DNA of 64,000 nucleotides from Oryzias latipes. Its lineage: Eukaryota; Chordata; Actinopteri; Beloniformes; Adrianichthyidae. The translations under genes were made by a program, and so were the position numbers. The notes below the pieces were generated by a model. That model saw only the letters and a list, made by a program, of their open reading frames with translations. It did not search any database and was not told the DNA's origin. Every line of letters starts with the position of its first letter. Position 1 is the first letter of the stretch. Shown here piece by piece: positions 7,964-61,269 of this stretch. The stretch spans positions 28,892,094 to 28,956,093 of the forward strand of contig NC_019871.2 in assembly GCF_002234675.1 (NCBI RefSeq), read 5' to 3'.

Positions 7964-7970
7964 TTATTGA
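7964..7970 (-). terminator. Poly(A) signal overlapping the stop codon, copy A
   Basis: The last codons read CTT CAA TAA ATG on the minus strand, so AATAAA starts inside the final Gln codon and covers the stop. The same overlap exists in copies B (39234-39239) and C (about 59245-59250). If used, the 3' UTR would be only tens of bases long. Confidence 0.5.
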
Positions 7971-10900
7971 AGAAGGCTGAAGGACACAGTCTGCTTGCTG
8001 GCGGCGTCGGACACAGTCTGCTTGCTGGCGGCGTCGGACACAGTCTGCTTGCTGGCGGCGTCGGACACAGTCTGCTTGCTGGCGGCGTCGGACACAGTCT
8101 GCTTGCTGGCGGCGTCGGACACAGTCTGCTTGCTGGCGGCGTCGGACACAGTCTGCTTGCTGGCGGCGTCGGACACAGTCTGGTTGCTGGCGGCGTCGGA
8201 CACAGTCTGGTTGCTGGCGGCGTCGGACACAGTCTGGTTGCTGGCGGCGTCGGACACAGTCTGGTTGCTGGCGGCGTCGGACACAGTCTGGTTGCTGGCG
8301 GCGTCGGACACAGTCTGGTTGCTGGCGGCGTCGGACACAGTCTGGTTGCTGGCGGCGTCGGACACAGTCTGGTTGCTGGCGGCGTCGGACACAGTCTGGT
8401 TGCTGGCGGCGTCGGACACAGTCTGGTTGCTGGCGGCGTCGGACACAGTCTGGTTGCTGGCGGCGTCGGACACAGTCTGGTTGCTGGCGGCGTCGGACAC
8501 AGTCTGGTTGCTGGCGGCGTCGGACACAGTCTGGTTGCTGGCGGCGTCGGACACAGTCTGGTTGCTGGCGGCGTCGGACACAGTCTGGTTGCTGGCGGCG
8601 TCGGACACAGTCTGGTTGCTGGCGGCGTCGGACACAGTCTGGTTGCTGGCGGCGTCGGACACAGTCTGGTTGCTGGCGGCGTCGGACACAGTCTGGTTGC
8701 TGGCGGCGTCGGACACAGTCTGGTTGCTGGCGGCGTCGGACACAGTCTGGTTGCTGGCGGCGTCGGACACAGTCTGGTTGCTGGCGGCGTCGGACACAGT
8801 CTGGTTGCTGGCGGCGTCGGACACAGTCTGGTTGCTGGCGGCGTCGGACACAGTCTGGTTGCTGGCGGCGTCGGACACAGTCTGGTTGCTGGCGGCGTCG
8901 GACACAGTCTGGTTGCTGGCGGCGTCGGACACAGTCTGGTTGCTGGCGGCGTCGGACACAGTCTGGTTGCTGGCGGCGTCGGACACAGTCTGGTTGCTGG
9001 CGGCGTCGGACACAGTCTGGTTGCTGGCGGCGTCGGACACAGTCTGGTTGCTGGCGGCGTCGGACACAGTCTGGTTGCTGGCGGCGTCGGACACAGTCTG
9101 GTTGCTGGCGGCGTCGGACACAGTCTGGTTGCTGGCGGCGTCGGACACAGTCTGGTTGCTGGCGGCGTCGGACACAGTCTGGTTGCTGGCGGCGGCGGAC
9201 ACAGTCTGGTTGCTGGCGGCGGCGGACACAGTCTGGTTGCTGGCGGCGGCGGACACAGTCTGGTTGCTGGCGGCGGCGGACACAGTCTGGTTGCTGGCGG
9301 CGGCGGACACAGTCTGGTTGCTGGCGGCGGCGGACACAGTCTGGTTGCTGGCGGCGGCGGACACAGTCTGGTTGCTGGCGGCGGCGGACACAGTCTGGTT
9401 GCTGGCGGCGGCGGACACAGTCTGGTTGCTGGCGGCGGCGGACACAGTCTGGTTGCTGGCGGCGGCGGACACAGTCTGGTTGCTGGCGGCGGCGGACACA
9501 GTCTGGTTGCTGGCGGCGGCGGACACAGTCTGGTTGCTGGCGGCGGCGGACACAGTCTGGTTGCTGGCGGCGGCGGACACAGTCTGGTTGCTGGCGGCGG
9601 CGGACACAGTCTGGTTGCTGGCGGCGGCGGACACAGTCTGGTTGCTGGCGGCGGCGGACACAGTCTGGTTGCTGGCGGCGGCGGACACAGTCTGGTTGCT
9701 GGCGGCGGCGGACACAGTCTGGTTGCTGGCGGCGGCGGACACAGTCTGGTTGCTGGCGGCGGCGGACACAGTCTGGTTGCTGGCGGCGGCGGACACAGTC
9801 TGGTTGCTGGCGGCGGCGGACACAGTCTGGTTGCTGGCGGCGGCGGACACAGTCTGGTTGCTGGCGGCGGCGGACACAGTCTGGTTGCTGGCGGCGGCGG
9901 ACACAGTCTGGTTGCTGGCGGCGGCGGACACAGTCTGGTTGCTGGCGGCGGCGGACACAGTCTGGTTGCTGGCGGCGGCGGACACAGTCTGGTTGCTGGC
10001 GGCGGCGGACACAGTCTGGTTGCTGGCGGCGGCGGACACAGTCTGGTTGCTGGCGGCGGCGGACACAGTCTGGTTGCTGGCGGCGGCGGACACAGTCTGG
10101 TTGCTGGCGGCGGCGGACACAGTCTGGTTGCTGGCGGCGGCGGACACAGTCTGGTTGCTGGCGGCGGCGGACACAGTCTGGTTGCTGGCGGCGGCGGACA
10201 CAGTCTGGTTGCTGGCGGCGGCGGACACAGTCTGGTTGCTGGCGGCGGCGGACACAGTCTGGTTGCTGGCGGCGGCGGACACAGTCTGGTTGCTGGCGGC
10301 GGCGGACACAGTCTGGTTGCTGGCGGCGGCGGACACAGTCTGGTTGCTGGCGGCGGCGGACACAGTCTGGTTGCTGGCGGCGGCGGACACAGTCTGGTTG
10401 CTGGCGGCGGCGGACACAGTCTGGTTGCTGGCGGCGGCGGACACAGTCTGGTTGCTGGCGGCGGCGGACACAGTCTGGTTGCTGGCGGCGGCGGACACAG
10501 TCTGGTTGCTGGCGGCGGCGGACACAGTCTGGTTGCTGGCGGCGGCGGACACAGTCTGGTTGCTGGCGGCGTCGGACACAGTCTGGTTGCTGGCGGCGTC
10601 GGACACAGTCTGGTTGCTGGCGGCGTCGGACACAGTCTGGTTGCTGGCGGCGTCGGACACAGTCTGGTTGCTGGCGGCGTCGGACACAGTCTGGTTGCTG
10701 GCGGCGTCGGACACAGTCTGGTTGCTGGCGGCGTCGGACACAGTCTGGTTGCTGGCGGCGTCGGACACAGTCTGGTTGCTGGCGGCGTCGGACACAGTCT
10801 GGTTGCTGGCGGCGTCGGACACAGTCTGGTTGCTGGCGGCGTCGGACACAGTCTGGTTGCTGGCGGCGTCGGACACAGTCTGGTTGCTGGCGGCGTCGGA

Positions 10901-13736
10901 CACAGTCTGGTTGCTGGCGGCGTCGGACACAGTCTGGTTGCTGGCGGCGTCGGACACAGTCTGGTTGCTGGCGGCGTCGGACACAGTCTGGTTGCTGGCG
11001 GCGTCGGACACAGTCTGGTTGCTGGCGGCGTCGGACACAGTCTGGTTGCTGGCGGCGTCGGACACAGTCTGGTTGCTGGCGGCGTCGGACACAGTCTGGT
11101 TGCTGGCGGCGTCGGACACAGTCTGGTTGCTGGCGGCGTCGGACACAGTCTGGTTGCTGGCGGCGTCGGACACAGTCTGGTTGCTGGCGGCGTCGGACAC
11201 AGTCTGGTTGCTGGCGGCGTCGGACACAGTCTGGTTGCTGGCGGCGTCGGACACAGTCTGGTTGCTGGCGGCGTCGGACACAGTCTGGTTGCTGGCGGCG
11301 TCGGACACAGTCTGGTTGCTGGCGGCGTCGGACACAGTCTGGTTGCTGGCGGCGTCGGACACAGTCTGGTTGCTGGCGGCGTCGGACACAGTCTGGTTGC
11401 TGGCGGCGTCGGACACAGTCTGGTTGCTGGCGGCGTCGGACACAGTCTGGTTGCTGGCGGCGTCGGACACAGTCTGGTTGCTGGCGGCGTCGGACACAGT
11501 CTGGTTGCTGGCGGCGTCGGACACAGTCTGGTTGCTGGCGGCGTCGGACACAGTCTGGTTGCTGGCGGCGTCGGACACAGTCTGGTTGCTGGCGGCGTCG
11601 GACACAGTCTGGTTGCTGGCGGCGTCGGACACAGTCTGGTTGCTGGCGGCGTCGGACACAGTCTGGTTGCTGGCGGCGTCGGACACAGTCTGGTTGCTGG
11701 CGGCGTCGGACACAGTCTGGTTGCTGGCGGCGTCGGACACAGTCTGGTTGCTGGCGGCGTCGGACACAGTCTGGTTGCTGGCGGCGTCGGACACAGTCTG
11801 GTTGCTGGCGGCGTCGGACACAGTCTGGTTGCTGGCGGCGTCGGACACAGTCTGGTTGCTGGCGGCGTCGGACACAGTCTGGTTGCTGGCGGCGTCGGAC
11901 ACAGTCTGGTTGCTGGCGGCGTCGGACACAGTCTGGTTGCTGGCGGCGTCGGACACAGTCTGGTTGCTGGCGGCGTCGGACACAGTCTGGTTGCTGGCGG
12001 CGTCGGACACAGTCTGGTTGCTGGCGGCGTCGGACACAGTCTGGTTGCTGGCGGCGTCGGACACAGTCTGGTTGCTGGCGGCGTCGGACACAGTCTGGTT
12101 GCTGGCGGCGTCGGACACAGTCTGGTTGCTGGCGGCGTCGGACACAGTCTGGTTGCTGGCGGCGTCGGACACAGTCTGGTTGCTGGCGGCGTCGGACACA
12201 GTCTGGTTGCTGGCGGCGTCGGACACAGTCTGGTTGCTGGCGGCGTCGGACACAGTCTGGTTGCTGGCGGCGTCGGACACAGTCTGGTTGCTGGCGGCGT
12301 CGGACACAGTCTGGTTGCTGGCGGCGTCGGACACAGTCTGGTTGCTGGCGGCGTCGGACACAGTCTGGTTGCTGGCGGCGTCGGACACAGTCTGGTTGCT
12401 GGCGGCGTCGGACACAGTCTGGTTGCTGGCGGCGTCGGACACAGTCTGGTTGCTGGCGGCGTCGGACACAGTCTGGTTGCTGGCGGCGTCGGACACAGTC
12501 TGGTTGCTGGCGGCGTCGGACACAGTCTGGTTGCTGGCGGCGTCGGACACAGTCTGGTTGCTGGCGGCGTCGGACACAGTCTGGTTGCTGGCGGCGTCGG
12601 ACACAGTCTGGTTGCTGGCGGCGTCGGACACAGTCTGGTTGCTGGCGGCGTCGGACACAGTCTGGTTGCTGGCGGCGTCGGACACAGTCTGGTTGCTGGC
12701 GGCGTCGGACACAGTCTGGTTGCTGGCGGCGTCGGACACAGTCTGGTTGCTGGCGGCGTCGGACACAGTCTGGTTGCTGGCGGCGTCGGACACAGTCTGG
12801 TTGCTGGCGGCGTCGGACACAGTCTGGTTGCTGGCGGCGTCGGACACAGTCTGGTTGCTGGCGGCGTCGGACACAGTCTGGTTGCTGGCGGCGTCGGACA
12901 CAGTCTGGTTGCTGGCGGCGTCGGACACAGTCTGGTTGCTGGCGGCGTCGGACACAGTCTGGTTGCTGGCGGCGTCGGACACAGTCTGGTTGCTGGCGGC
13001 GTCGGACACAGTCTGGTTGCTGGCGGCGTCGGACACAGTCTGGTTGCTGGCGGCGTCGGACACAGTCTGGTTGCTGGCGGCGTCGGACACAGTCTGGTTG
13101 CTGGCGGCGTCGGACACAGTCTGGTTGCTGGCGGCGTCGGACACAGTCTGGTTGCTGGCGGCGTCGGACACAGTCTGGTTGCTGGCGGCGTCGGACACAG
13201 TCTGGTCTTGACTTAGCATTATATGAGCTTCCACCTCATTGGTTTCCAGTTGTACTAACAAAACAAATATTTACTTTAACATTTGCGTTTGTTATGGCGC
13301 TCATAGCCTTTTCAGAAAAGCCAAGCCACGTGTTCACCATATTGTAAATTTCTTTACAAATTCTCACCTTTAACCAGATTTTCCAACCTGGAATCCAGGG
13401 ACTGTAGAAGATCAAAGCTGCTCTCTAAAGCCAAATCTTTTGGGGGAGGAAAAGAAAGTAAACATCCACTCAGAAAATTTTTCTGGATACACTTTGCTAG
13501 CATTGAGTCTCACCAGCTCCTCTTCCCATCTGTTTATGGTTTGCATCCTGGGTTTCTCTAGCAACTGGCAAGCTTAAACCTTAGGAGAATCACAGTTTTA
13601 TAGGTTAAATGTTTGCTTTGATGGTTTATGTAAAACAAATTTCAATCTGCAGTAAATTCTCCTTCCAATAAAGCTACATACCATTGCTAAGGAAAACAGC
13701 CAAAACACAAAGGGCCACAAACGACTGCGCTCCCAT
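7964..13736 (-). CDS. Hyosophorin-like egg glycopolyprotein, copy A
   Basis: Four coding exons on the minus strand: 13736-13682 (55 bp), 13579-13514 (66 bp), 13436-13368 (69 bp) and 13254-7964 (5291 bp), all with GT-AG introns in matching phase, giving 1826 codons plus stop. The N-terminus MGAQSFVALCVLAVFLSN is a signal peptide. About 80 unique residues lead into 193 tandem nonapeptides, mostly QTVSDAASN, then QTVS and FSLLQ. N followed by QT is an N-glycosylation sequon, predicted in 186 units. In gene order, units 1-98 and 150-186 are QTVSDAASN, 99-149 are QTVSAAASN, and 187-193 end in K and lose the sequon. The circular permutation DAASNQTVS matches the medaka hyosophorin repeat as I remember it; that protein sits in cortical alveoli and is released and cut into repeat units at fertilisation. 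The start follows the signal peptide and the splice pattern shared with copies B and C. Expression in oocytes is inference. Confidence 0.9.
7994..13204 (-). repeat. 193-unit 27-bp coding array of copy A
   Basis: Exactly 193 x 27 bp with no indel. The unit is about 67% GC with three CpGs. Three variants occur: the common unit, a block of 51 units (9182-10558) where the GAC codon is GCC, and seven units at the 3' end of the gene (7994-8182) where AAC is AAG. All variants are contiguous blocks, which indicates spread by unequal exchange or slippage. Confidence 0.95.
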
Positions 13737-13865
13737 CTTTTCAGACACAGAATGAGAAGCCAACAAACAAGAGGAGCTTAAAAAAGTTCCTCCTGCAGGA
13801 AACACAGCTGCTGTTCATAACAGCTGATTGTCTTTCTCCTCAGATCAGCTGGACTCACATTTTGA
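13737..13865 (-). promoter_or_regulatory. Putative promoter of copy A
   Basis: Three CAGCTG E-boxes (13805-13810, 13821-13826, 13846-13851) and a TATA-like TTTTTTAAG at about 13778-13786 lie just upstream of the start codon and are conserved in copies B and C. E-boxes near the TATA box are typical of fish and mammalian oocyte genes driven by FIGLA; use here is inference. Confidence 0.45.
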
Positions 13866-14276
13866 TTGACGCACCTGTGATGAAACCTCAGTATTTATGG
13901 ATTACCTCGTTAGTTCTTAGTTTTATTAGGTTAAGATAAAAGCTTGAAAATGTCACACTAAGTCAACAAAAATAAATAAATGTTCCTGTAATCTTTGTGT
14001 AAAAAGTTCACTCTGTTGAGGAATCAAACTGTTTACTTGAAGAAAATCAAGTCATTCGACAGTAAAATGCAATCTTCAGTATAATGGAGGACATCGAAGC
14101 TCCACAGAAATAGTGTTTGCAGAAATTTTGTTTTCCTTTTTTATAGACATTTTATATAGATTTTTAAATATTTTCTCATATAAATGTCAGGACTCGGTTT
14201 CAGGAACTTGGAGTTACAGTAATGCATCTTTATAGCAAGAGCAGATCTTTTCTGATCCGTGAGCAGACAAAGACAC
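13866..14276. other. 5' flank shared by all three hyosophorin-like genes
   Basis: No gene is seen. It is nearly identical (inverted) to 31992-32400 and (direct) to 61385-61800. Homology of copy A stops at about 14275, where an L1 element begins. Confidence 0.65.
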
Positions 14277-16785
14277 ACAAAGCCCTAAATGTCTAAGGTG
14301 CGGTTAAAATTTGCCAAGTAGCCCCCCCCCCAAGGCGCATCGCAGGCTAGACCCCCCACCCCCTCACCCTAATATGAGGTTATATGAGGAAGGGGGTAAG
14401 TTGGGGACAGCTGGTAGACTGTCCCCCGGTGGTCAAACAGCCGTCCCCCAGCAAAGGGGCCAGGGCCACCCAGCCCAGGGGCCCCACCCCCGGAGGCGCC
14501 GACACCCCAGGCCCGGCACCACCCACCCCACACAGAGAGAGAGGAGCCAGAAAGCGTCGCCCCCCCCGGAGCAAGCCCAGGCCCCCACCCCCAGACGCCG
14601 GCCCTAGAGGAGCTCTGGTCAGGCCTTGACGGGACCGAGGAGGCCAACCGGCCGAGGCAACCACTGATTGCCTCAGCGGAGACCCCGACCCGTTAGCCCC
14701 CCCGACCCTTACCAATAATGGGCCCCCCCTCCCCCCCAGAACGCCCCCCCACAGGACAGGGCCGACAGGCCCCCCACCCCACCCCACCCCAGACCCCGCA
14801 GCCGAAGCGGGTGACACCCAGAGCGACCGGGGGCCCCGAGAGGGTTGTCCCGTCCCATCCCAGAGCCAGGGAAGGGCCGATCCCAGCCCCAGGTGCAGAT
14901 GGGCAGCCCATCCGGCGCCGCTGCCCCCCCCCCCCGAGCAAGGCCCCCCGCCAACCCCCCCAGCACAGGCAAAGGGACCACCCCCCCAAGCCAAGCCAGA
15001 CCACCACCCCACCCCACCCCCCCACCACGCACCCCCACACCCAAGCCCAGAGGACCACGCAGCGCCCCAGCCCGCCCCACCCAGGCACCGGACCCGACCC
15101 CCCGACCAACGGAGCCCCCCACCGCCCCCGCCAGGCACCGGAAGCCCCGACCCCCACCCCAAACCACGGCAGAAGGGCTAGGAGCAGCGACGACCAAGCC
15201 CCTCACCCCCTAAGTCATGGAGTCAACCACAGGAGACCAGAGAGACTGAATTCTTTCAAAGTTACTTGAGCTTTGGGCTGACATTTTTTCCAAGCTGATA
15301 TGATCAAGCAGCAGATTTCTGTGTTGACTTATGTTTATATTTTTCTTGTTTTTCCAATTTATTAAAATAGTTTTTTGGCAATACAGAGAGTTATGAAAAT
15401 GATAGATGCTAATCCTTCTTCTATATCGATGGCACTCATGTCACCAAGCACACAAAGTGACGGTGAGGCAGTGATTGAAACCTTAAGCCAGACTGATAAA
15501 TCGGCACATACCTGCTGCCAGAGAGCCTGGACAGGAGTGCAGAACCACAGTGCGTGCATGTAGCTGTCGGATAGATTATTATCACAGTGCTCGCAAATGT
15601 ATGAGTTACTGAGACCCATCTTGAACATCCTCTGTCCAGTGTAGTAAATTCTGTGAAGAGTTTTGAGATGGATTAGCGGCAGATTTGGACTTTTTGTCAG
15701 TTTAAAGGTGTTTAGACAGAGTTCTGACCAGAAGCTTTCATCTGTGCTGATGCTCAAATCTGCATCCCATTTTGTTGTTGGAAGGGCAATATTGTTATCT
15801 AAATTACATAAAAGTTTGTATATTTTGGAGAGAGTTCTATTCATTGAAAAATTAATCAGAGTGGTAACTACATCTGGTAGCTTTAAATCGTCGTCTTTAA
15901 ATTTATACTTTTTAGTAATACTTGATTTAAGTTGCTGATATTCCAAGAAGTTATTTATTCCATATTTGTCTTGAAGTTCCTGGGGAGTTATGAATCTTCT
16001 ATCAATAATTACGTGCTCTAGTTGTTTTATGCCCCCTGCTTGCCAAGCTGGGAAGTGAATCATTTTTTTGTTAATAAGGATGTCCGGGTTGTTCCAGATG
16101 CGTGTCATTTTGCACGGTTGAATTGATGATTTTGATATTTTGAGAAATTCCCACCAGGCTGTTAAAGTGGCATTTATATTAATACTTTTGAAACAATCCT
16201 GTTTTTTAACTGTTTGGCTAATAAATGGTAGCTGTGACAGGTTGATCTTTCCACATAACGCCTGTTCCAAGTCTAACCATGAGTTGGTTTCTGGATTATT
16301 TTTTAACCATTTTAAGATATATTGTAATCTATTTGCAAGAAAGTATTTGTAGAAGTTAGGTAATTTTAATCCTCCACAGCTTTTTGCAGATTTTAAAGTT
16401 TTTAGACTAATTCTTGCAGGTTTGTTGTTCCATAGAAAGCTTGATATGGATGAGTCTAATGTTTTGAACCATTTTAATGGCGGTTGTGTGGGAATCATTG
16501 AGAAGAGATAATTAACCTTGGGTAAGATTTTCATTTTAACCGTGGCTACCTTGCCCATAAGGGACAGAGGCAGGTTGGTCCAGCGTGTTAGATCGTCCTG
16601 TATGCTTTTTAGTAATGGGGTGTGGTTTAGCTGCACCAGTTCTGATAGTTTGGGGGGAAAGTAGATACCCAGATATTTGATATTTCCTGTTTTAACTGGA
16701 ATTGTGAGTCTTTGTTCCATATTCCTGTTGAGTGGTAATAAAACAGACTTATTCCAATTAATGGAATAGTCTGATATGGAGGAGA
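14277..16785 (-). mobile_element. 5'-truncated L1-type LINE with C-rich 3' UTR
   Basis: The plus strand shows a C-rich segment (14320-15210) followed by a minus-strand ORF2 C-terminal part. The order corresponds to an L1 lying on the minus strand: ORF2 end, then a G-rich 3' UTR. The C-rich part matches 55460-55740 (for example TATGAGGTTATATGAGGAAG), which belongs to another L1 copy. The 5' side ends at about 16785 where a foldback element starts; the extreme 3' end with the poly(A) is missing. Confidence 0.7.
15362..16785 (-). pseudogene. L1 ORF2 C-terminal region
   Basis: About 475 codons are open and read the region downstream of the reverse transcriptase palm: a KYLGIYFPP block, WTNLPLSLMGKVATVKMKIL, and a terminal zinc-knuckle-like CEHCDNNLSDSYMHALWFC. 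This pattern is typical of the C-terminal domain of L1-clade ORF2 proteins. The catalytic RT core and the endonuclease are absent, so the copy is dead. The open frame continues about 15 codons into the neighbouring element by chance. Confidence 0.75.
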
Positions 16786-19263: not shown

Positions 19264-19275
19264 CAGCATGTTTTA

Positions 19276-31269: not shown

Positions 31270-31311
31270 TACTAGAGGCCAGAATCACTTTTTTTAGTGT
31301 AGAAGTCTCTG

Positions 31312-32402
31312 CGAAGAACCAGAGTGCATAGATGCTTACTAGATTGGTGAATATAGACCATGATACATTGCGTTTGAGAAATTTTTTTGAGGAAAGTCAG
31401 AGCAGTTTGACAGTCGCTTCTTCTCTTGTTTTGAGTTCCATAGGAACAAAGTTTCACAGGTACGTTCGGAGCATAGTTACTACATACGTGACAAAAGTCT
31501 CCAGACACTCAGACTTTTCGGAAGAAACTTCCTAAAAAGCGCTGAAGCTCTCAGCACCATGGACAGCAGCCTTCAACTGACAGACAGGACTTGAACATAA
31601 GAAACTCTTAAACCGACAGAAATCAGCTTCTGCAAAGTTATTCTCTTTTAGCGCAACTTATATTTAAAATTTTTTTCAATTGGTTTGCATTTTCTTGATA
31701 TTTTAACCACATTTTCAAATTTACAATCAATTGTGTATAAACAGATTTTGCAAAGTTGTACAGATCTGTTTTAGCTGGACTTTTTATGTCATGAAATGTG
31801 AAAATCCTGGCACGATGTGTAATGACTTTAAATCTCCACTAGAGAGCGCTCACATGGAAAATGTAATCTTCATTGTAATCTTCGTAATGAAAGAAAGTTG
31901 TCTAACATCCAACAAACATGTAATGGTTTAAGGAGAATAAAAGATTGATATTTAGTCTTTGAGACAAAGGAGTTTGGAATGAAGGAAGGTTTGTCTTTGT
32001 CTGCTCACGGATCAGAAAAGATCTGCTCTTGCTCTAAAGATGCAACACTGTAACTCCAAGTTCCTGAAACCGAGTCCTGACATTTATATAAGAAAATATT
32101 TAAAAATCTATATAAAATGTCTATAAAAAAGGAAAACAAATTTTCTGCAAACACTATTTCTGTGGAGCTTCAATGTCCTCCATTATACTGAAGATTGCAT
32201 TTTACTGTCCAATGACTTGATTTTCTTCAAGTAAACAGTTTGATTCCTCAACAGAGTGAACTTTTTACACAAAGATTACGGGAACATTTATTTATTTTTG
32301 TTGACTTAGTGTGACATTTTCAAGCTTTTATCTTAACCTAATAAAACTAAGAACTAACGAGGTAATCCATAAATACTGAGGTTTCATCACAGGTGCGTCA
32401 AT
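31312..32402. repeat. 5' flank of copy B, inverted duplicate of the copy C flank
   Basis: 31312-31992 matches 61800-62488 inverted, and 31992-32402 is shared by all three copies. No gene is visible. Confidence 0.7.
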
Positions 32403-32530
32403 CAAAATGTGAGTCCAGCTGATCTGAGGAGAAAGACAATCAGCTGTTATGAACAGCAGCTGTGTTTCCTGCAGGAGGAACTTTTTTAAGCTCCTCTTGT
32501 TTGTTGGCTTCTCATTCCGTGTCTGAAAAG
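32403..32530 (+). promoter_or_regulatory. Putative promoter of copy B
   Basis: CAGCTG E-boxes at 32416-32421, 32441-32446 and 32457-32462 and a TATA-like TTTTTTAAG at about 32482-32490 precede the ATG at 32531. The order and spacing equal those of copies A and C. Confidence 0.45.
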
Positions 32531-35500
32531 ATGGGAGCTCAGTCGTTTGTGGCCCTTTGTGTTTTGGCTGTTTTCCTTAGCAATGGTATGTAGCTTTATT
32601 GGAAGGAGAATTTACTGCCGATTGAAATTTGTTTTACATAAACCATCAAAGCAAACATTTAACCTATAAAACTGTGTTTCTCCTTAGGTTTAAGCTTGCC
32701 AGTTGCTAGACAAACCCAGGATGCAAACCATAAAAATATTGGAAGAGGAGCTGGTGAGACTTGATGCTAGCAAAGTGTATCCAGAAAAAAATCCTGAGTG
32801 GATGTTTACTACTTTCTTTTCCTCCCCCTAAAGATTTGGCTTTAGAGAGCAGCTTTGATCTTCTACAGTCCCTGGATTCCAGGTTGGAAAATCTGGTTAA
32901 AGGTGAGAATTTGTAAAGAAATTTACAATATGGTGAACACGTGGCTTGGCTTTTCTGAAAAGGCTATGAGCGCCATAACAAACGCAAATGTTAAAGTAAA
33001 TATTTGTTTTGTTAGTACAACTGGAAACCAATGAGGTGGAAGCTCATATAATGATAAGTCAAGACCAGACTGTGTCCGACGCCGCCAGCAACCAGACTGT
33101 GTCCGACGCCGCCAGCAACCAGACTGTGTCCGACGCCGCCAGCAACCAGACTGTGTCCGACGCCGCCAGCAACCAGACTGTGTCCGACGCCGCCAGCAAC
33201 CAGACTGTGTCCGACGCCGCCAGCAACCAGACTGTGTCCGACGCCGCCAGCAACCAGACTGTGTCCGACGCCGCCAGCAACCAGACTGTGTCCGACGCCG
33301 CCAGCAACCAGACTGTGTCCGACGCCGCCAGCAACCAGACTGTGTCCGACGCCGCCAGCAACCAGACTGTGTCCGACGCCGCCAGCAACCAGACTGTGTC
33401 CGACGCCGCCAGCAACCAGACTGTGTCCGACGCCGCCAGCAACCAGACTGTGTCCGACGCCGCCAGCAACCAGACTGTGTCCGACGCCGCCAGCAACCAG
33501 ACTGTGTCCGACGCCGCCAGCAACCAGACTGTGTCCGACGCCGCCAGCAACCAGACTGTGTCCGACGCCGCCAGCAACCAGACTGTGTCCGACGCCGCCA
33601 GCAACCAGACTGTGTCCGACGCCGCCAGCAACCAGACTGTGTCCGACGCCGCCAGCAACCAGACTGTGTCCGACGCCGCCAGCAACCAGACTGTGTCCGA
33701 CGCCGCCAGCAACCAGACTGTGTCCGACGCCGCCAGCAACCAGACTGTGTCCGACGCCGCCAGCAACCAGACTGTGTCCGACGCCGCCAGCAACCAGACT
33801 GTGTCCGACGCCGCCAGCAACCAGACTGTGTCCGACGCCGCCAGCACCAGACTGTCCCCCCCCACCGCCGCCCCCACCACCAGACTGTGTCCGACGCCGC
33901 CAGCAACCAGACTGTGTCCGACGCCGCCAGCAACCAGACTGTGTCCGACGCCGCCAGCAACCAGACTGTGTCCGACGCCGCCAGCAACCAGACTGTGTCC
34001 GACGCCGCCCACCGACCGCCCCCCCCAACCAGACTGTGTCCGACGCCGCCAGCAACCAGACTGTGTCCGACGCCGCCAGCAACCAGACTGTGTCCGACGC
34101 CGCCAGCAACCAGACTGTGTCCGACGCCGCCAGCAACCAGACTGTGTCCGACCGCCGCAACCAGACCCACGCCGCAGCAACCAGACTGTGTCCGACGCCG
34201 CCAGCAACCAGACTGTGTCCGACGCCGCCAGCAACCAGACTGTGTCCGACGCCGCCAGCAACCAGACTGTGTCCGACGCCGCCAGCAACCAGACTGTGTC
34301 CGACGCCGCCAGCAACCAGACTGTGTCCGACGCCGCCAGCAACCAGACTGTGTCCGACGCCGCCAGCAACCAGACTGTGTCCGACGCCGCCAGCAACCAG
34401 ACTGTGTCCGACGCCGCCAGCAACCAGACTGTGTCCGACGCCGCCAGCAACCAGACTGTGTCCGACGCCGCCAGCAACCAGACTGTGTCCGACGCCGCCA
34501 GCAACCAGACTGTGTCCGACGCCGCCAGCAACCAGACTGTGTCCGACGCCGCCAGCAACCAGACTGTGTCCGACGCCGCCAGCAACCAGACTGTGTCCGA
34601 CGCCGCCAGCAACCAGACTGTGTCCGACGCCGCCAGCAACCAGACTGTGTCCGACGCCGCCAGCAACCAGACTGTGTCCGACGCCGCCAGCAACCAGACT
34701 GTGTCCGACGCCGCCAGCAACCAGACTGTGTCCGACGCCGCCAGCAACCAGACTGTGTCCGACGCCGCCAGCAACCAGACTGTGTCCGACGCCGCCAGCA
34801 ACCAGACTGTGTCCGACGCCCCCGCAACCAGACTGTGTCCGACGCCGCCAGCAACCAGACTGTGTCCGACGCCGCCAGCAACCAGACTGTGTCCGACGCC
34901 GCCAGCAACCAGACTGTGTCCGACGCCGCCAGCAACCAGACTGTGTCCGACGCCGCCAGCAACCAGACTGTGTCCGACGCCGCCAGCAACCAGACTGTGT
35001 CCGACGCCGCCAGCAACCAGACTGTGTCCGACGCCGCCAGCAACCAGACTGTGTCCGACGCCGCCAGCAACCAGACTGTGTCCGACGCCGCCAGCAACCA
35101 GACTGTGTCCGACGCCGCCAGCAACCAGACTGTGTCCGACGCCGCCAGCAACCAGACTGTGTCCGACGCCGCCAGCAACCAGACTGTGTCCGACGCCGCC
35201 AGCAACCAGACTGTGTCCGACGCCGCCAGCAACCAGACTGTGTCCGACGCCGCCAGCAACCAGACTGTGTCCGACGCCGCCAGCAACCAACTGTGTCCGA
35301 CGCCGCAGCAACCAGACTGTGTCCGACGCCGCCAGCAACCAGACTGTGTCCGACGCCGCCAGCAACCAGACTGTGTCCGACGCCGCCAGCAACCAGACTG
35401 TGTCCGACGCCGCCAGCAACCAGACTGTGTCCGACGCCGCCAGCAACCAGACTGTGTCCGACGCCGCCAGCAACCAGACTGTGTCCGACGCCGCCAGCAA

Positions 35501-38500
35501 CCAGACTGTGTCCGACGCCGCCAGCAACCAGACTGTGTCCGACGCCGCCAGCAACCAGACTGTGTCCGACGCCGCCAGCAACCAGACTGTGTCCGACGCC
35601 GCCAGCAACCAGACTGTGTCCGACGCCGCCAGCAACCAGACTGTGTCCGACGCCGCCAGCAACCAGACTGTGTCCGACGCCGCCAGCAACCAGACTGTGT
35701 CCGACGCCGCCCAGCACCCAGACTGTGTCCGACGCCGCCAGCAACCAGACTGTGTCCGACGCCGCCAGCAACCAGACTGTGTCCGACGCCGCCAGCAACC
35801 AGACTGTGTCCGACGCCGCCAGCAACCAGACTGTGTCCGACGCCGCCAGCAACCAGACTGTGTCCGACGCCGCCAGCAACCAGACTGTGTCCGACGCCGC
35901 CAGCAACCAGACTGTGTCCGACGCCGCCAGCAACCAGACTGTGTCCGACGCCGCCAGCAACCAGACTGTGTCCGACGCCGCCAGCAACCAGACTGTGTCC
36001 GACGCCGCCAGCAACCAGACTGTGTCCGACGCCGCCAGCAACCAGACTGTGTCCGACGCCGCCAGCAACCAGACTGTGTCCGACGCCGCCAGCAACCAGA
36101 CTGTGTCCGACGCCGCCAGCAACCAGACTGTGTCCGACGCCGCCAGCAACCAGACTGTGTCCGACGCCGCCAGCAACCAGACTGTGTCCGACGCCGCCAG
36201 CAACCAGACTGTGTCCGACGCCGCCAGCAACCAGACTGTGTCCGACGCCGCCAGCAACCAGACTGTGTCCGACGCCGCCAGCAACCAGACTGTGTCCGAC
36301 GCCGCCAGCAACCAGACTGTGTCCGACGCCGCCAGCAACCAGACTGTGTCCGACGCCGCCAGCAACCAGACTGTGTCCGACGCCGCCAGCAACCAGACTG
36401 TGTCCGACGCCGCCAGCAACCAGACTGTGTCCGACGCCGCCAGCAACCAGACTGTGTCCGCCCGCCGCCAGCAACCAGACTGTGTCCGACGCCGCCAGCA
36501 ACCAGACTGTGTCCGACGCCGCCAGCAACCAGACTGTGTCCGACGCCGCCAGCAACCAGACTGTGTCCGACGCCGCCAGCAACCAGACTGTGTCCGACGC
36601 CGCCAGCAACCAGACTGTGTCCGACGCCGCCAGCAACCAGACTGTGTCCGACGCCGCCAGCAACCAGACTGTGTCCGACGCCGCCAGCAACCAGACTGTG
36701 TCCGACGCCGCCAGCAACCAGACTGTGTCCGACGCCGCCAGCAACCAGACTGTGTCCGACGCCGCCAGCAACCAGACTGTGTCCGACGCCGCCAGCAACC
36801 AGACTGTGTCCGACGCCGCCAGCAACCAGACTGTGTCCGACGCCGCCAGCAACCAGACTGTGTCCGACGCCGCCAGCAACCAGACTGTGTCCGACGCCGC
36901 CAGCAACCAGACTGTGTCCGACGCCGCCAGCAACCAGACTGTGTCCGACGCCGCCAGCAACCAGACTGTGTCCGACGCCGCCAGCAACCAGACTGTGTCC
37001 GACGCCGCCAGCAACCAGACTGTGTCCGACGCCGCCAGCAACCAGACTGTGTCCGACGCCGCCAGCAACCAGACTGTGTCCGACGCCGCCAGCAACCAGA
37101 CTGTGTCCGACGCCGCCAGCAACCAGACTGTGTCCGACGCCGCCAGCAACCAGACTGTGTCCGACGCCGCCAGCAACCAGACTGTGTCCGACGCCGCCAG
37201 CAACCAGACTGTGTCCGACGCCGCCAGCAACCAGACTGTGTCCGACGCCCGCCCCGGCAGCAACCAGACTGTGTCCGACGCCGCCAGCAACCAGACTGTG
37301 TCCGACGCCGCCAGCAACCAGACTGTGTCCGACGCCGCCAGCAACCAGACTGTGTCCGACGCCGCCAGCAACCAGACTGTGTCCGACGCCGCCAGCAACC
37401 AGACTGTGTCCGACGCCGCCAGCAACCAGACTGTGTCCGACGCCGCCAGCAACCAGACTGTGTCCGACGCCGCCAGCAACCAGACTGTGTCCGACGCCGC
37501 CAGCAACCAGACTGTGTCCGACGCCGCCAGCAACCAGACTGTGTCCGACGCCGCCAGCAACCAGACTGTGTCCGACGCCGCCAGCAACCAGACTGTGTCC
37601 GACGCCGCCCAGCAACCAGACTGTGTCCGACGCCGCCAGCAACCAGACTGTGTCCGACGCCGCCAGCAACCAGACTGTGTCCGACGCCGCCAGCAACCAG
37701 ACTGTGTCCGACGCCGCCAGCAACCAGACTGTGTCCGACGCCGCCAGCAACCAGACTGTGTCCGACGCCGCCAGCAACCAGACTGTGTCCGACGCCGCCA
37801 GCAACCAGACTGTGTCCGACGCCGCCAGCAACCAGACTGTGTCCGACGCCGCCAGCAACCAGACTGTGTCCGACGCCGCCAGCAACCAGACTGTGTCCGA
37901 CGCCGCCAGCAACCAGACTGTGTCCGACGCCGCCAGCAACCAGACTGTGTCCGACGCCGCCAGCAACCAGACTGTGTCCGACGCCGCCAGCAACCAGACT
38001 GTGTCCGACGCCGCCAGCAACCAGACTGTGTCCGACGCCGCCAGCAACCAGACTGTGTCCGACGCCGCCAGCAACCAGACTGTGTCCGACGCCGCCAGCA
38101 ACCAGACTGTGTCCGACGCCGCCAGCAACCAGACTGTGTCCGACGCCGCCAGCAACCAGACTGTGTCCGACGCCGCCAGCAACCAGACTGTGTCCGACGC
38201 CGCCAGCAACCAGACTGTGTCCGACGCCGCCAGCAACCAGACTGTGTCCGACGCCGCCAGCAACCAGACTGTGTCCGACGCCGCCAGCAACCAGACTGTG
38301 TCCGACGCCGCCAGCAACCAGACTGTGTCCGACGCCGCCAGCAACCAGACTGTGTCCGACGCCGCCAGCAACCAGACTGTGTCCGACGCCGCCAGCAACC
38401 AGACTGTGTCCGACGCCGCCAGCAACCAGACTGTGTCCGACGCCGCCAGCAACCAGACTGTGTCCGACGCCGCCAGCAACCAGACTGTGTCCGACGCCGC

Positions 38501-39237
38501 CAGCAACCAGACTGTGTCCGACGCCGCCAGCAACCAGACTGTGTCCGACGCCGCCAGCAACCAGACTGTGTCCGACGCCGCCAGCAACCAGACTGTGTCC
38601 GACGCCGCCAGCAACCAGACTGTGTCCGACGCCGCCAGCAACCAGACTGTGTCCGACGCCGCCAGCAACCAGACTGTGTCCGACGCCGCCAGCAACCAGA
38701 CTGTGTCCGACGCCGCCAGCAACCAGACTGTGTCCGACGCCGCCAGCAACCAGACTGTGTCCGACGCCGCCAGCAACCAGACTGTGTCCGACGCCGCCAG
38801 CAACCAGACTGTGTCCGACGCCGCCAGCAACCAGACTGTGTCCGACGCCGCCAGCAACCAGACTGTGTCCGACGCCGCCAGCAACCAGACTGTGTCCGAC
38901 GCCGCCAGCAACCAGACTGTGTCCGACGCCGCCAGCAACCAGACTGTGTCCGACGCCGCCAGCAACCAGACTGTGTCCGACGCCGCCAGCAACCAGACTG
39001 TGTCGACGCCGCAGCAACCAGACTGTGTCCGACGCCGCCAGCAACCAGACTGTGTCCGACGCCGCCAGCAACCAGACTGTGTCCGACGCCGCCAGCAACC
39101 AGACTGTGTCCGACGCCGCCAGCAACCAGACTGTGTCCGACGCCGCCAGCAACCAGACTGTGTCCGACGCCGCCAGCAACCAGACTGTGTCCGACGCCGC
39201 CAGCAACCAGACTTTGTCCTTCAGCCTTCTTCAATAA
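32531..39237 (+). CDS. Hyosophorin-like egg glycopolyprotein, copy B (frame disturbed)
   Basis: Exons 32531-32585, 32688-32753, 32834-32902 and 33016 onward copy the structure of A and C, with intact GT-AG sites and the same signal peptide and lead-in (HIMISQD, as in C). The array 33066-39207 is 6142 bp, not a multiple of three, because about ten irregular units change the frame (near 33850, 34010, 34150, 34820, 35290, 35710, 36460, 37250, 37608 and 39005). The sequon-bearing frame QTVSDAASN is read at 33066-33845, about 34186-34816, 35312-35705 and 37614-39000. In between the same DNA reads TRLCPTPPA or PDCVRRRQQ. No stop arises, so a literal translation runs to 39329 with a foreign C-terminus instead of FSLLQ. 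Most breaks are C-run or single-base changes in otherwise perfect DNA, so assembly error is as likely as real decay. Confidence 0.75.
33066..39207 (+). repeat. About 228-unit 27-bp coding array of copy B
   Basis: 6142 bp of the same unit as copy A, all of the common N-type, with about ten irregular units concentrated at 33840-34190 and then scattered. The A-type (QTVSAAASN) and K-type (QTVSDAASK) units of copy A are not seen here. Confidence 0.9.
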
Positions 39238-40149
39238 ATGTTTCTTACATCTTAATGCATTTTTGTTTTTCTCACATTTGGGGAAGACCTCCAGTATTAA
39301 ATCACTCAGCAAAAATTGTATTTAAATAGAGAAATTGTAAGTAAAATTAGGGAGGTTTAGCTTACTTTGAGTAGTTTAGTGACTTGAATGAATTGGATAA
39401 AAGTTGTTCCAATGGCTTTAAATGAAATTTAGGTATAAAAGCAAACAGTTCTGAGATACTATTGGACTAGGTTAGCTTTTTGAGGAGGAAGACCTTGATG
39501 GACAGCCGTGACAGTGATTCATGATGCAGCTTTCCTTTATATCACTCGCTCTTACAACAGTACTTGGATGACTGCCCTACCACTGCACCATGGCACCATT
39601 GAAATTTTTAGAGAGGCATGTGTAGTTGGAAAGACTTGGATCAACGTAAGACTGCGTTGGCTTCATTTTAGCAGTTCACAGGTCATGTTTCCCACATCCC
39701 CACCCCCGTTAGGTTTCAACTGAAAAGTATCAACTCTGCCCCTGCAGCTATGGTAACGTTGGGTCACACAAAGAAGTTTTACACAGCTTGGGGTCAAATT
39801 GAACCTTAAGGAACAATGTATGCAATATGTGCTTAGGACATTGGGGAAAAAAAACATTCTAATTTTATGCTTAATCAGTTGTCCCCATCAAATTAGGAAA
39901 AGTCATGAAATATGATGTAAAAACTAGTTATTTGTATACTGTTTTTTTTTTTTCTTTACTAATAGTTTTAAAAGCTAATTTTTTCTTTTTTTCGGGTGTT
40001 TTTGCAATTGGACAGATAATCTGCAGATTCTTTCATCAAATTAAACAATTTTGTTTCTCTTCATGTGTGGAAATGTGCAGATGAGTTTTTCAAAGATACT
40101 CAGATAAATCTTTATTTACAAACCTACTAAACGGGCCAGAGTACAACCC
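39238..40149. other. 3' flank of copy B
   Basis: Inverted counterpart of 7031-7963. No gene. Confidence 0.6.
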
Positions 40150-40660
40150 CCTCCCACAGCAGCAGAGCACTGGCAGAAGAATTGAACAGCTTCTTTGTCC
40201 GCTTTGAAACCTTGTCTCAACTACAGCCACCACAGCACCAACACCAATGCTCTACTCATCCTTCAGGAATATGAGGTGAGAGGAACCCTGAGAGCTACGA
40301 AACCAGGAAAGCTGCAGGACCAGACGTCATCCTGGGCGCCGTTATCAAGGAGTGTGTGGATGAGCTGGCTGGTGTCCTTACTAAACTGTTCCACCTCTCT
40401 TTGTCCCATGTCTCTGTTCCAAGCTGCCTTAAATCCTCCACCATCCTCCCTGTCCCCAAAAAGTTGTCCATGAACTGCATCAATGACTACAGACTCTTAG
40501 CCCTCACGTCTGTAATCACAAAGTGCTTGGAGCGACTCCTGCACGATCCCCTAACCCCCTTAGACCCCCTCCAGTTCGCCTACAGGGCGAACAGTGGGTT
40601 GATGCTCCTATTATCAAATATAAACATGACAACATTGGTGAAGAAACAAATTTAAAAGAA
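40150..40660 (+). pseudogene. Non-LTR reverse transcriptase fragment (duplicate)
   Basis: Inverted duplicate of 6508-7030 with the same DELAGVLTKLF and DPLQFAYRANS blocks. It was copied with the hyosophorin locus rather than inserted independently. Confidence 0.65.
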
Positions 40661-40999
40661 TCTATACATGTAAATAGATTGGTATACTGTGCTTTGAGAA
40701 CTATGTCTCTGAATTGTAACTAGGCAGTAATGTGCAGCAGAAGATAATAAAATAAGCTTTAAGTTTATTCCACTGATTCACACAGGTGGTTTGGCAGAGA
40801 GTTTGTATGCTAGATGATCCTTTTAATGCAACCCTGTATTGCAGAGGAAGACACATAGAAGCAGTGTGATTTGTGGATTTGAGATTTTTCGCTTTTTAGC
40901 AAGATTGGCTCCTCTGGGAAGCAAACCAAGGTTTCGTGCGCAGCAGTGCTAAATTCAGCCAACAGAGCTGTAATGTGTAAATTTTGCCTTCAGTTAGTG

Positions 41000-41453
41000 C
41001 AGTGCTTCTCAATTATTTTTTGCAAGGTCCCCCCTAGGAAAAAGAAAATGGCCCCCACCCCCCACTCGCCGCGTTGACAATTTATTAGGTTAGTATCTAT
41101 CAAATTGTGTAAGTATACCTAAAATTGTATCTTTTAACATTAACAAAAGAAAAAAACAATACAAATCCACTTTCAACAAATATTAAATGTATTTGGCCAC
41201 ACACAAACCCTGTTATAGTCTAAAACAGAAAAAAAGCTTACAGTGCCTGAAATAAACAGGGACTGCAGTTCACAGTTTCAGGCTGTTCCAAACTCTGTGA
41301 TATAACCGATAATAGGAAACCAACAGTGGCGCAGATTTTTTTCCAAGCACTGAGCCGCTTTCACTGCAGCCCCCCTTTTGCACCCTGAGCAATTGCCCGT
41401 ATTACCTGTGCCTAAAACCGCTACTACTGCGCCCCCCCCTGGCATCGCGCAGG
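41000..41453. mobile_element. Truncated hAT MITE (duplicate of 5737-6163)
   Basis: Begins CAGTGCTTCTCAATT and follows the A-side MITE inverted until CCTGGCATCGCGCA, then diverges. This is where the A/B homology breaks. Confidence 0.65.
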
Positions 41454-44248: not shown

Positions 44249-44745
44249 AAAGAGCACTTACAGCATTGGAAAGTTAGTTATTAGATGAAGACATCACCAT
44301 CTTCTAATTTGCTGCATGTTTTCCTTTGAAGAAATAAAAACAGAGTAGTTAGTTTGTGCCACAACCCAAAAGTGTCTTGAATTCACTTGACACAAACTGA
44401 CCAGAATTTACACACACCTCACTGAAATCACATTTAGTTTATATTTAGTTAGTTATTGGATTTAGTTTATAAACATATTATACTCTATGTGACTATGAAT
44501 GAGGAGGCCTGAATTGGTCTATCATGTCAATATCTCTGCTTTTCTCCAGTTAATCTACTTCAAACTTGCTGTGATGATCATGAACATCATTACCAACAAT
44601 AATCCAGTAAAGGTTTTGCGTCACCTTTTGAAAAAGTAGCATTTTGGATGGTTTACATATTCCACTCCGACTATGTATGAGGGAAATCTGTAATTTTCTC
44701 CAGTTAATTTTCATCAAACTACTAGCTACCAGTGTAGAATGCCTT
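44249..44745. other. No recognisable gene
   Basis: AT-rich flank; from about 44720 the inverted match to 2080-2680 begins. Confidence 0.4.
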
Positions 44746-49548: not shown

Positions 49549-51145
49549 TGTTGCTCCCATTTTTTATGGTATGAACTCAAAGATGTGAAACTTTTTCCAC
49601 ATACACAAACTAACCAGTTCTCTGAAATATTGTTCACAAATCTAAATCTGTGATAGTGAGCACTTCTCCTTTGCCAAGACAACCCATCCCACCTCGCAGG
49701 TGTGCCATATCAAGATGCTGATTAGACAGCATGATTATTGCACAGGTGTGCCTTAGACTGGCCACAAGAAAAGGCCACTCTGAAATCTTCAGTTGTATCA
49801 CACAGCACAATGCCACAGATGTCGCAAGTTTTGAGGGAGCGTGCAATTGGCATGCTGATAGCAGGAATGTCCACCAGAGCTGTTGCTAGGGAATTGAATG
49901 TCCATTTCTCCACAATAAGTCGTCTCCAAAGGCGTTTCCGAGAATTTGGCAGCACATCCAACCAGCCTCACAACCGCAGACCACGTGTAACCACACCAGC
50001 CCAAGACCTCCACATCCAGCATGTCCACCTGCAAGATCGTCTGAGACCAGCCACTCGGACAGCTGCTGAAACAATCGGTTTGCATAACCACAGAATTTCT
50101 GCACAAACTGTCAGAAACCGTCTCAGGGAAGCTCATCTGCATGCTCGTCGTCCTCATGGAGGTCTCGACCTCACTCCAGTTCGTCGTCGTAACCGACTTG
50201 AGTGGGCAAATGCTCACATGCAATGGCGTCTGGCACGTTGGAGAGGTGTTCTCTTCACGGATGAATCCCAGTTCACACTGTTCAGGGCAGATGGCAGACA
50301 GCGTGTGTGGCGTCGTGTGGGTGAGCGGTTTTCTGATGTCAATGTTGTGGATCGAGTAGCCCATGGTGGTGGTGGGATCATGGTATGGGCAGGCATATTT
50401 TATGGGCGAAGAACACAGGTGCATTTCATTGATGGCATTTTGAATGCATAGAGATACCCTGACGAGATCCTGGGGCCCATCGTTGTGCCGTACATCCAAC
50501 AACATCACCTCATGTTGCAGCATGATAATGCATGGCCCCATGTTGCAAGGATCTGTACACAATTATTGGAAGCTGAAAACATCCCAGTTCTTGCATGGCC
50601 AGCATACTCACCGGACATGTCACCCATTGAGCATGTTTGGGATGCTCTGGATCGGCGTATACGACAGCGTGTTCCAGTTCCTGCCAATATCCAGCAACTT
50701 CGCCCAGCCATTGAAGAAGAGTGGAACAACATTCCACAGGCCACAATAGACAACCTGATCAACTCTATGCGAAGGAGATGTGTCGCACTTGATGAGGCAA
50801 ATGGTGGTCACACCAGATACTGACTGGTTGTCTGAGTCCCCTGACCCCCTCAATAAAACAAAACTGAAGATTTCAGAGTGGCCTTTTCTTGAGGCCAGTC
50901 TAAGGCACACCTGTGCAATAATCATGCTGTCTAATCAGCATTTTGATATGGCACACCTGCGAGGTGGGATGGATTGTCTTGGCAAAGGAAAGTGCTCACT
51001 ATCACAGATTTAGACAGATTTGTGAACAATATTTCAGAGAACTGGTTATTTTGTGTATGTGGAAAATGTTTCAAATATTTGAGTTCATACCATAAAAAAT
51101 GGGAGCAATAACAAAAGCGTTGTGTTTATATTTTTGGTCAGTGTA
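49549..51145 (+). mobile_element. Tc1-type transposon
   Basis: Long inverted repeats of roughly 240 bp (left TTGCTCCCATTTTTTATGG, right complement of the same) flank a transposase. The right end is CAGTGTA with a TA target. The outermost left ~40 bp do not match the right end, so the left terminus is damaged. Confidence 0.8.
49810..50823 (+). pseudogene. Tc1-type DD34E transposase with one nonsense mutation
   Basis: From ATG at 49810 (MPQMSQVLRERAIGMLIAG) the protein shows a paired helix-turn-helix N-terminus (TRAVARELNVHFSTISRLQ), a first catalytic Asp in FTDESQF, the second in QHDNAWPH and the Glu in YSPDMSPIEHVW, ending at 50823. A TAG at 50449-50451 follows the GILNA block; the same frame continues directly after it, so this appears to be a single in-frame nonsense change. 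Length otherwise fits Tc1 transposases at about 337 codons. It is inserted next to an exon of the host transposon's own transposase. Confidence 0.8.
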
Positions 51146-59222: not shown

Positions 59223-59246
59223 AATGCATTAAGATGTAAGAAACAT

Positions 59247-61269
59247 TTATTGAAGAAGGCTGAAGGACACAGTCTGGTTGCTGGCGGCGTCGGACACAGT
59301 CTGGTTGCTGGCGGCGTCGGACACAGTCTGGTTGCTGGCGGCGTCGGACACAGTCTGGTTGCTGGCGGCGTCGGACACAGTCTGGTTGCTGGCGGCGTCG
59401 GACACAGTCTGGTTGCTGGCGGCGTCGGACACAGTCTGGTTGCTGGCGGCGTCGGACACAGTCTGGTTGCTGGCGGCGTCGGACACAGTCTGGTTGCTGG
59501 CGGCGTCGGACACAGTCTGGTTGCTGGCGGCGTCGGACACAGTCTGGTTGCTGGCGGCGTCGGACACAGTCTGGTTGCTGGCGGCGTCGGACACAGTCTG
59601 GTTGCTGGCGGCGTCGGACACAGTCTGGTTGCTGGCGGCGTCGGACACAGTCTGGTTGCTGGCGGCGTCGGACACAGTCTGGTTGCTGGCGGCGTCGGAC
59701 ACAGTCTGGTTGCTGGCGGCGTCGGACACAGTCTGGTTGCTGGCGGCGTCGGACACAGTCTGGTTGCTGGCGGCGTCGGACACAGTCTGGTTGCTGGCGG
59801 CGTCGGACACAGTCTGGTTGCTGGCGGCGTCGGACACAGTCTGGTTGCTGGCGGCGTCGGACACAGTCTGGTTGCTGGCGGCGTCGGACACAGTCTGGTT
59901 GCTGGCGGCGTCGGACACAGTCTGGTTGCTGGCGGCGTCGGACACAGTCTGGTTGCTGGCGGCGTCGGACACAGTCTGGTTGCTGGCGGCGTCGGACACA
60001 GTCTGGTTGCTGGCGGCGTCGGACACAGTCTGGTTGCTGGCGGCGTCGGACACAGTCTGGTTGCTGGCGGCGTCGGACACAGTCTGGTTGCTGGCGGCGT
60101 CGGACACAGTCTGGTTGCTGGCGGCGTCGGACACAGTCTGGTTGCTGGCGGCGTCGGACACAGTCTGGTTGCTGGCGGCGTCGGACACAGTCTGGTTGCT
60201 GGCGGCGTCGGACACAGTCTGGTTGCTGGCGGCGTCGGACACAGTCTGGTTGCTGGCGGCGTCGGACACAGTCTGGTTGCTGGCGGCGTCGGACACAGTC
60301 TGGTTGCTGGCGGCGTCGGACACAGTCTGGTTGCTGGCGGCGTCGGACACAGTCTGGTTGCTGGCGGCGTCGGACACAGTCTGGTTGCTGGCGGCGTCGG
60401 ACACAGTCTGGTTGCTGGCGGCGTCGGACACAGTCTGGTTGCTGGCGGCGTCGGACACAGTCTGGTTGCTGGCGGCGTCGGACACAGTCTGGTTGCTGGC
60501 GGCGTCGGACACAGTCTGGTTGCTGGCGGCGTCGGACACAGTCTGGTTGCTGGCGGCGTCGGACACAGTCTGGTTGCTGGCGGCGTCGGACACAGTCTGG
60601 TTGCTGGCGGCGTCGGACACAGTCTGGTTGCTGGCGGCGTCGGACACAGTCTGGTTGCTGGCGGCGTCGGACACAGTCTGGTTGCTGGCGGCGTCGGACA
60701 CAGTCTGGTTGCTGGCGGCGTCGGACACAGTCTGGTCTTGACTTATCATTATATGAGCTTCCACCTCATTGGTTTCCAGTTGTACTAACAAAACAAATAT
60801 TTACTTTAACATTTGCGTTTGTTATGGCGCTCATAGCCTTTTCAGAAAAGCCAAGCCACGTGTTCACCATATTGTAAATTTCTTTACAAATTCTCACCTT
60901 TAACCAGATTTTCCAACCTGGAATCCAGGGACTGTAGAAGATCAAAGCTGCTCTCTAAAGCCAAATCTTTAGGGGGAGGAAAAGAAAGTAGTAAACATCC
61001 ACTCAGGATTTTTTTCTGGATACACTTTGCTAGCATCAAGTCTCACCAGCTCCTCTTCCAATATTTTTATGGTTTGCATCCTGGGTTTGTCTAGCAACTG
61101 GCAAGCTTAAACCTAAGGAGAAACACAGTTTTATAGGTTAAATGTTTGCTTTGATGGTTTATGTAAAACAAATTTCAATCGGCAGTAAATTCTCCTTCCA
61201 ATAAAGCTACATACCATTGCTAAGGAAAACAGCCAAAACACAAAGGGCCACAAACGACTGAGCTCCCAT
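59247..61269 (-). CDS. Hyosophorin-like egg glycopolyprotein, copy C
   Basis: Exons 61269-61215, 61112-61047, 60966-60898 and 60784-59247, the same sizes and phases as copy A, give 575 codons plus stop. The first 80 residues (signal peptide, then DLALESSFDLLQSLDSRLE in exon 3) precede 54 perfect QTVSDAASN units and the C-terminus QTVSFSLLQ. All 54 units create an NQT sequon. Lead-in residues and introns are closer to copy B than to A. The gene is intact but short; the 3' flank found in A and B is missing and replaced by an ERV LTR that starts about 25 bp beyond the stop. Identification as hyosophorin rests on the repeat, as for copy A. Confidence 0.9.
59277..60734 (-). repeat. 54-unit 27-bp coding array of copy C
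   Basis: Exactly 54 x 27 bp, with no variant unit that I could find by eye. Confidence 0.95.

Follow-up and report, generated by a model that had tools for sequence, protein, structure and literature searches.

Medaka hyosophorin was reportedly the subject of a 1989 work by Kitajima, Inoue and Inoue, and a 1991 study is said, going by its title, to deal with free glycans liberated from hyosophorin in medaka embryos. Here we describe a gene cluster in a 64,000-nt window (the whole stretch of DNA analysed; Oryzias latipes, contig NC_019871.2, positions 28,892,094 to 28,956,093), in which three genes, named A, B and C, each end in a giant exon built from one 27-bp unit that encodes the nonapeptide DAASNQTVS. 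As judged from sequence comparison, the cluster very probably consists of three medaka-type hyosophorin precursor genes, related by inverted duplication, each encoding a long N-glycosylated nonapeptide polymer. In the literature passages available, hyosophorin is a cortical-alveolus protein (PMC12753239, PMC3528131), whose medaka form repeats a nonapeptide bearing a large N-glycan, apparently at Asn5; free glycans can be generated from hyosophorin, and a medaka acid PNGase acts on it (PMC12753239). Hyosophorin has also been isolated from flounder, with a precursor of 100-120 kDa, far smaller than the products of genes A or B would be. The salmonid form of hyosophorin, polysialoglycoprotein (PSGP), is described, likewise in excerpts, as a cortical-alveolus tandem-repeat glycoprotein of 200 kDa that is cut to 9 kDa after release at fertilisation and is said to create the colloid osmotic pressure swelling the perivitelline space (PMC3528131).

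The window unit agrees with medaka hyosophorin in its length (nine residues) and in the position of Asn (5), the glycan itself being predicted from the sequon. We take the exact letters of the published nonapeptide to be DAASNQTVS; none of DAASNQTVS, AASNQTVS and Asp-Ala-Ala-Ser-Asn was among the literature matches listed, and the hyphenated form could lie beyond these. The medaka hyosophorin works cited in the available passages are biochemical by title, and no account of such a gene cluster, of arrays of 54-228 units or of AAAS and SKQ blocks was met in those passages. The kind of protein is known; the locus structure, the giant arrays, the block variants and the constant leader with changing repeats are new. 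The flounder (Paralichthys olivaceus) protein P0016, which we infer to be the isolated flounder hyosophorin, has a leader motif and N-glycosylation repeats as the window genes do, but its repeat differs (VTLDG with NVT). The salmonid PSGP unit differs too, having, in the excerpts available, 13 residues with three O-glycans and O-linked polysialic acid, in contrast to a nine-residue unit with an N-glycosylation sequon; an assignment of the window genes to the PSGP type was set aside, as their unit is not the 13-residue O-glycan unit. Trout PSGP is encoded by several genes with differing repeat numbers, a point for which the literature search gave no passage.

Gene structure and repeat arrays

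The positions below are those of the window.
7964..13736, minus strand: gene A, start to stop codon, predicted 1826 aa
13736-13682, 13579-13514, 13436-13368 and 13254-7964, minus strand: gene A exons, introns GT..AG, phase 1
7982..13206, minus strand: gene A array, 193 full units (Tandem Repeats Finder and unit count)
32531..39237, plus strand: gene B, exons 32531-32585, 32688-32753, 32834-32902 and 33016 onward
33064..39219, plus strand: gene B array, about 228 unit-lengths (212 perfect units, ten indel-bearing patches)
59247..61269, minus strand: gene C, start to stop codon, predicted 575 aa
61269-61215, 61112-61047, 60966-60898 and 60784-59247, minus strand: gene C exons
59265..60736, minus strand: gene C array, 54 identical DAASNQTVS units

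The first-pass annotation, made from the letters of the window, had proposed three genes of identical exon structure in alternating orientation between 7964 and 61269, and this was borne out: each gene has four exons, of which exons 1-3 measure 55, 66 and 69 nt in all three and exon 4 is the giant repeat exon, the orientations are -, + and -, every intron is GT..AG and of phase 1, and the outer positions are the last base of the gene A stop codon (7964) and the first base of the gene C start codon (61269). Introns 1 (102 nt) and 3 (113 nt) do not vary in length among the three genes; intron 2, of 80 nt in both B and C, measures 77 nt in A. The predicted leader of B and C is MGAQSFVALCVLAVFLSNGLSLPVARQTQDANHKNIGRGADLALESSFDLLQSLDSRLENLVKVQLETNEVEAHIMISQDQTVS, from which that of A departs by four substitutions; its N-terminus, MGAQSFVALCVLAVFLSNG, is hydrophobic (judged by eye). 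In genes A and C the final repeat passes into FSLLQ and then into a stop codon overlapping an AATAAA motif. A tblastn search of the window (arrays masked; two window leaders and three relatives as queries) returned A, B and C, all other matches having E values of at least 0.032.

Tandem Repeats Finder gave 193.5 copies with 99% matches for A, 227.5 copies with 97% for B, and 54.5 copies with 100% for C; at such lengths a chance origin is of no concern. In gene C, for which 54 units had been claimed, all 54 were indeed the same 27 bases, encoding DAASNQTVS. The count of 193 likewise held for gene A, whose array is not uniform: it consists, in order, of 98 DAASNQTVS, 51 AAASNQTVS, 37 DAASNQTVS and 7 DAASKQTVS units, so that the three forms (135, 51 and 7 units) lie in contiguous blocks, each variant being one base from the main unit, with no other variation and no indel. 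The NQT sequon is kept in 54/54 units of C and in 186/193 of A, being lost in the last seven units of A. Random placement would not yield such a contiguous variant run; the blocks may have arisen by duplication of a variant unit or as a consensus artefact. On a rival view, the assembly would be wholly or partly responsible both for the lengths of the arrays and for the blocks of A; the true arrays would differ in length, and the D-to-A block would be a consensus error. The exact contiguous runs, the apparent consensus errors of gene B (see below) and the fact that the D-to-A change is, like these, a change to C point that way, but no indel interrupts the array of A (193 units) or that of C (54), a single clean substitution accounts for the block change in 51/51 units, and unit-by-unit duplication of a variant would also give contiguous runs; we regard such an artefact as somewhat unlikely.

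For gene B, the proposed length of about 228 units was recovered but the single reading frame was not. The array has 212 perfect units and, between 33834 and 39030, ten patches with indels whose net length shift is not a multiple of three. By wrap-around alignment, the patches lack 29 bases, carry 15 extra ones and have 9 substitutions; 23 of the deleted bases fall in two patches, 13 of the inserted bases are C, and all nine substitutions are to C, although these are not independent (five lie in one patch). One further G-to-T substitution lies outside the patches, in the last unit. The literal open reading frame (ORF) of 2167 aa exits the DAASNQTVS frame after unit 28 and misses the counterpart of the A and C stop codon (39235-39237), which is out of frame as assembled. 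Since the 27-mer has no stop codon in any of the six frames, each array appears in ORF lists as six long overlapping ORFs, and the frameshifts of B are hidden. The idea that six-frame openness was selected as a safeguard was considered and found unconvincing: of the 73728 synonymous ways to encode DAASNQTVS, 5632 (7.6%) leave all six frames free of stop codons, and 34% do so for the three forward ones.

Ordinary mutation is mostly substitution, and because the patches are rich in indels and biased towards C they look like uncorrected consensus error in a long GC-rich repeat. As an example of such assemblies, those of medaka from 2017 were, in the passages available, made from PacBio contigs and polished with Quiver and Pilon, merged centromeric repeats being left uncorrected (PMC5705604). 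A real frameshifted pseudogene, or a chimeric polymer with units from other frames (CPTPPATRL, QQPDCVRRR), would account for the ten patches with their net frame shift, for a literal ORF that, with every frame of the array open, stays long, and for the clean G-to-T change outside the patches; we consider it improbable, given that the 212 units between the patches are perfect, that every patch holds indels, and that the substituted and inserted bases show the bias given above.

Relatives and the shared leader

In a first protein search, five Oryzias proteins were matched at E values of 4.8e-27 or better, namely P0001 and P0002 (O. javanicus), P0003 and P0004 (O. melastigma; named polysialoglycoprotein-like) and P0005 (O. 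latipes), all of which share the leader and carry DAASNQTVS units; a sixth match (E = 0.42) looks unrelated and was rejected. A profile search, in which the best 7990 candidates by common words were scored, gave 16 proteins at E values up to 0.01, four of them being rows of the query: seven from Oryzias and nine from Etheostoma, Perca, Sebastes, Plectropomus, Epinephelus and Paralichthys. The seven Oryzias homologues of the leader (P0001-P0005, P0007 and P0010, from three species) include six with DAASNQTVS or DAASNQTAS units, and this, together with the match of the nonapeptide and its Asn5 to the published unit, gives good support to the hyosophorin-like identity that had been proposed. A hyosophorin repeat in the same species differing from DAASNQTVS, which the first-pass annotation had named as a ground against that identity, does exist (DAASNQTAS, in P0007 of O. 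latipes), but the units of P0005 are DAASNQTVS and the identity is not refuted. Its description of the cluster as an egg-envelope system was not upheld, as hyosophorin is described as a cortical-alveolus protein and PSGP as acting in the perivitelline space.

The nine proteins from other genera (flounder, perches, darters, groupers and rockfish) have the leader motif and mostly other N-glycosylation repeats. The Etheostoma spectabile unit is GDQAANQTL; the repeats contain NVT in Paralichthys and Epinephelus and NAT in Plectropomus, and the tails of the Sebastes and Perca fluviatilis proteins are rich in sequons and less regular. P0010 and P0015 have little or no repeat, perhaps from incomplete gene models, and P0008 and P0009 are without the start of the leader. 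In the leader alignment of 15 of the 16 proteins (P0004, an isoform of P0003, was left out), L66, E70, V71 and E72 are invariant, with the local consensus VQLETNEVEAEAS. By this comparison a constant leader carries changing N-glycosylation cassettes, which suggests a general rule whereby the leader is kept across spiny-rayed fishes and the glycan-bearing repeat is replaced per lineage and homogenised per array. The predicted structure of the P0010 leader was weak (mean predicted local distance difference test score (pLDDT) 59.9, predicted template modelling score 0.25), with helices at 3-19 (block pLDDT 78) and 39-79.

In the leader tree, the window genes were sister to O. latipes LOC101175394 (P0007) with a support of 0.925, which makes Oryzias or a near relative their most likely source; P0007 and gene C have 62 of 80 leader residues identical, and O. 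latipes LOC101161851 (P0005) is more distant (42/79). These two genes, on two contigs of 32.2 and 23.7 Mb, have units of DAASNQTAS (P0007) and DAASNQTVS (P0005), of which only two to three each are annotated, possibly in incomplete gene models; hyosophorin genes thus appear poorly annotated. Both proteins are named only as uncharacterized protein, and Etheostoma relatives among P0008, P0009 and P0011 bear the names circumsporozoite protein-like and pentatricopeptide repeat-containing; with names that are misleading or absent, the fish gene family is poorly annotated.

Duplication history, proposed working and precursor size

Flanks were compared with the arrays masked, and the following parts were found to be in common.
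13207..14278, minus strand: gene A 5' part (leader exons, introns and upstream), common to B (97.4%) and C (97.6%)
31300..33063, plus strand: gene B 5' part, inverted match to C at 98.4%, differences concentrated away from the array
60737..62503, minus strand: gene C 5' part, partner of that of B
5759..7981, minus strand: gene A 3' flank, inverted match to the gene B 3' flank at 91%
39220..41451, plus strand: gene B 3' flank, partner of that of A

The inverted 5' match of B and C extends over 1.77 kb, of which A has 1.07 kb, ending at 14278, some 540 bp upstream of the A start codon; the 3' flank common to A and B is 2.2 kb long, and the likeness of C to A and B ends about 24 nt past the stop codon (by eye). 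By these matches the three genes appear as relatives by inverted duplication. In the comparison of B with C, 4 of 967 sites close to the array are different, as are 22 of 797 further out, introns included (Fisher p ~4e-5, for a near-far split picked after viewing the divergence profile), a pattern that suggests exchange centred on the gene. The uniformity of the arrays is probably kept by unit duplication and exchange between copies.

By analogy with the protein class, from whose literature the storage site, the glycan and the proteolysis at fertilisation are taken, the oocyte would make a precursor composed of a putative signal peptide, a short pro-leader and the very long nonapeptide polymer; the leader would be removed, each Asn5 would bear a large N-glycan, and the polymer would be packed into cortical alveoli. 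At fertilisation it would be released and cut at the Ser-Asp junctions, the presumed cleavage sites, into single glyco-nonapeptides that would hold water in the perivitelline space. Genes A and C, and probably B, would be expressed and follow this path. The number of units would set the glycans per molecule, and the earlier ideas that copy number tunes the glycan load and that the cluster is dosage-expanded are plausible; with 54 to about 228 units the locus would be a natural system with more than a threefold range in the possible number of glycans per molecule (54 sequons in C vs 186 in A). In a very improbable extension, the blocks of gene A would be real functional zones, one gene making both a soluble osmolyte and an attached layer. 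The 51-unit AAASNQTVS block, because its presumed junction Ser-Asp becomes Ser-Ala, would then escape the fertilisation protease and stay whole as a 51-glycan polymer, and the seven glycan-free DAASKQTVS units, with adjacent Lys and Gln, could serve the chorion-hardening transglutaminase as an attachment point, through which the polymer of gene A would be anchored to the egg envelope.

Taking 874 Da as the residue mass of one unit and a carbohydrate share of 80-90% (a figure for the class), we estimate masses of 0.84-1.69 MDa for A, 1.0-2.0 MDa for B (if intact) and 0.24-0.47 MDa for C, the locus thus predicting precursors near one megadalton. Several results weigh against the hyosophorin identification. 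The estimate for gene A (~0.8-1.7 MDa) is far above the mass of the flounder precursor, which would mean that the medaka-type precursor is of exceptional size, that its main source is something other than the long arrays, or that assembly has lengthened these arrays beyond their true extent. Gene B as assembled has only about 120 of its 228 unit-lengths in the DAASNQTVS frame. Between the leaders of A and C, 4 amino-acid-changing and 1 silent codon were found in 79 codons, with no sign of purifying selection in the short time involved. In a search for long annotated relatives, not one of 5415 candidates obtained a score (query, the coding part of gene A exon 4, with residues 1-120 used for scoring), a result that may stem from missing gene models or repeat handling and is not proof of absence. 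Finally, no Pfam family or PDB chain matched the window protein. This last result, together with arrays that are GC-rich and open in all frames, would also suit a non-coding minisatellite or an unrelated secreted repeat protein merely resembling hyosophorin, which we find hardly credible in view of a spliced leader homologous to annotated polysialoglycoprotein-like proteins, the same nonapeptide in three Oryzias species, and a related leader in flounder and other percomorphs. Hyosophorin identity is preferred because of the homology of leader and nonapeptide to the Oryzias proteins and the consistent phase-1 gene models.

Other features of the window

Of the 95 listed ORFs of at least 95 aa, 20 were scanned against Pfam; four of these exceeded the curated cut-off, three with matches of transposon type and one with CCDC106, and the 20 offered no synteny anchor. 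The remaining features were as follows.
22895-25335, minus strand: remains of a long terminal repeat-type retrotransposon, with reverse transcriptase and RNase H above the cut-off and an integrase core match below it (24.7 vs 32.6 bits)
49735-50451, plus strand: piece of a Tc1/mariner-type transposase ORF (HTH_Tnp_Tc3_2, E = 1.7e-10)
46288-46599, minus strand: 103-aa ORF matching CCDC106 (E = 7.5e-19), possibly a gene exon or a domesticated element
3907-4506, plus strand: 199-aa ORF with a weak ExoX-like_C match (19.3 bits, under the 26.5 cut-off)
43588-44251: three tandem copies of a 224-bp unit, 97% matches

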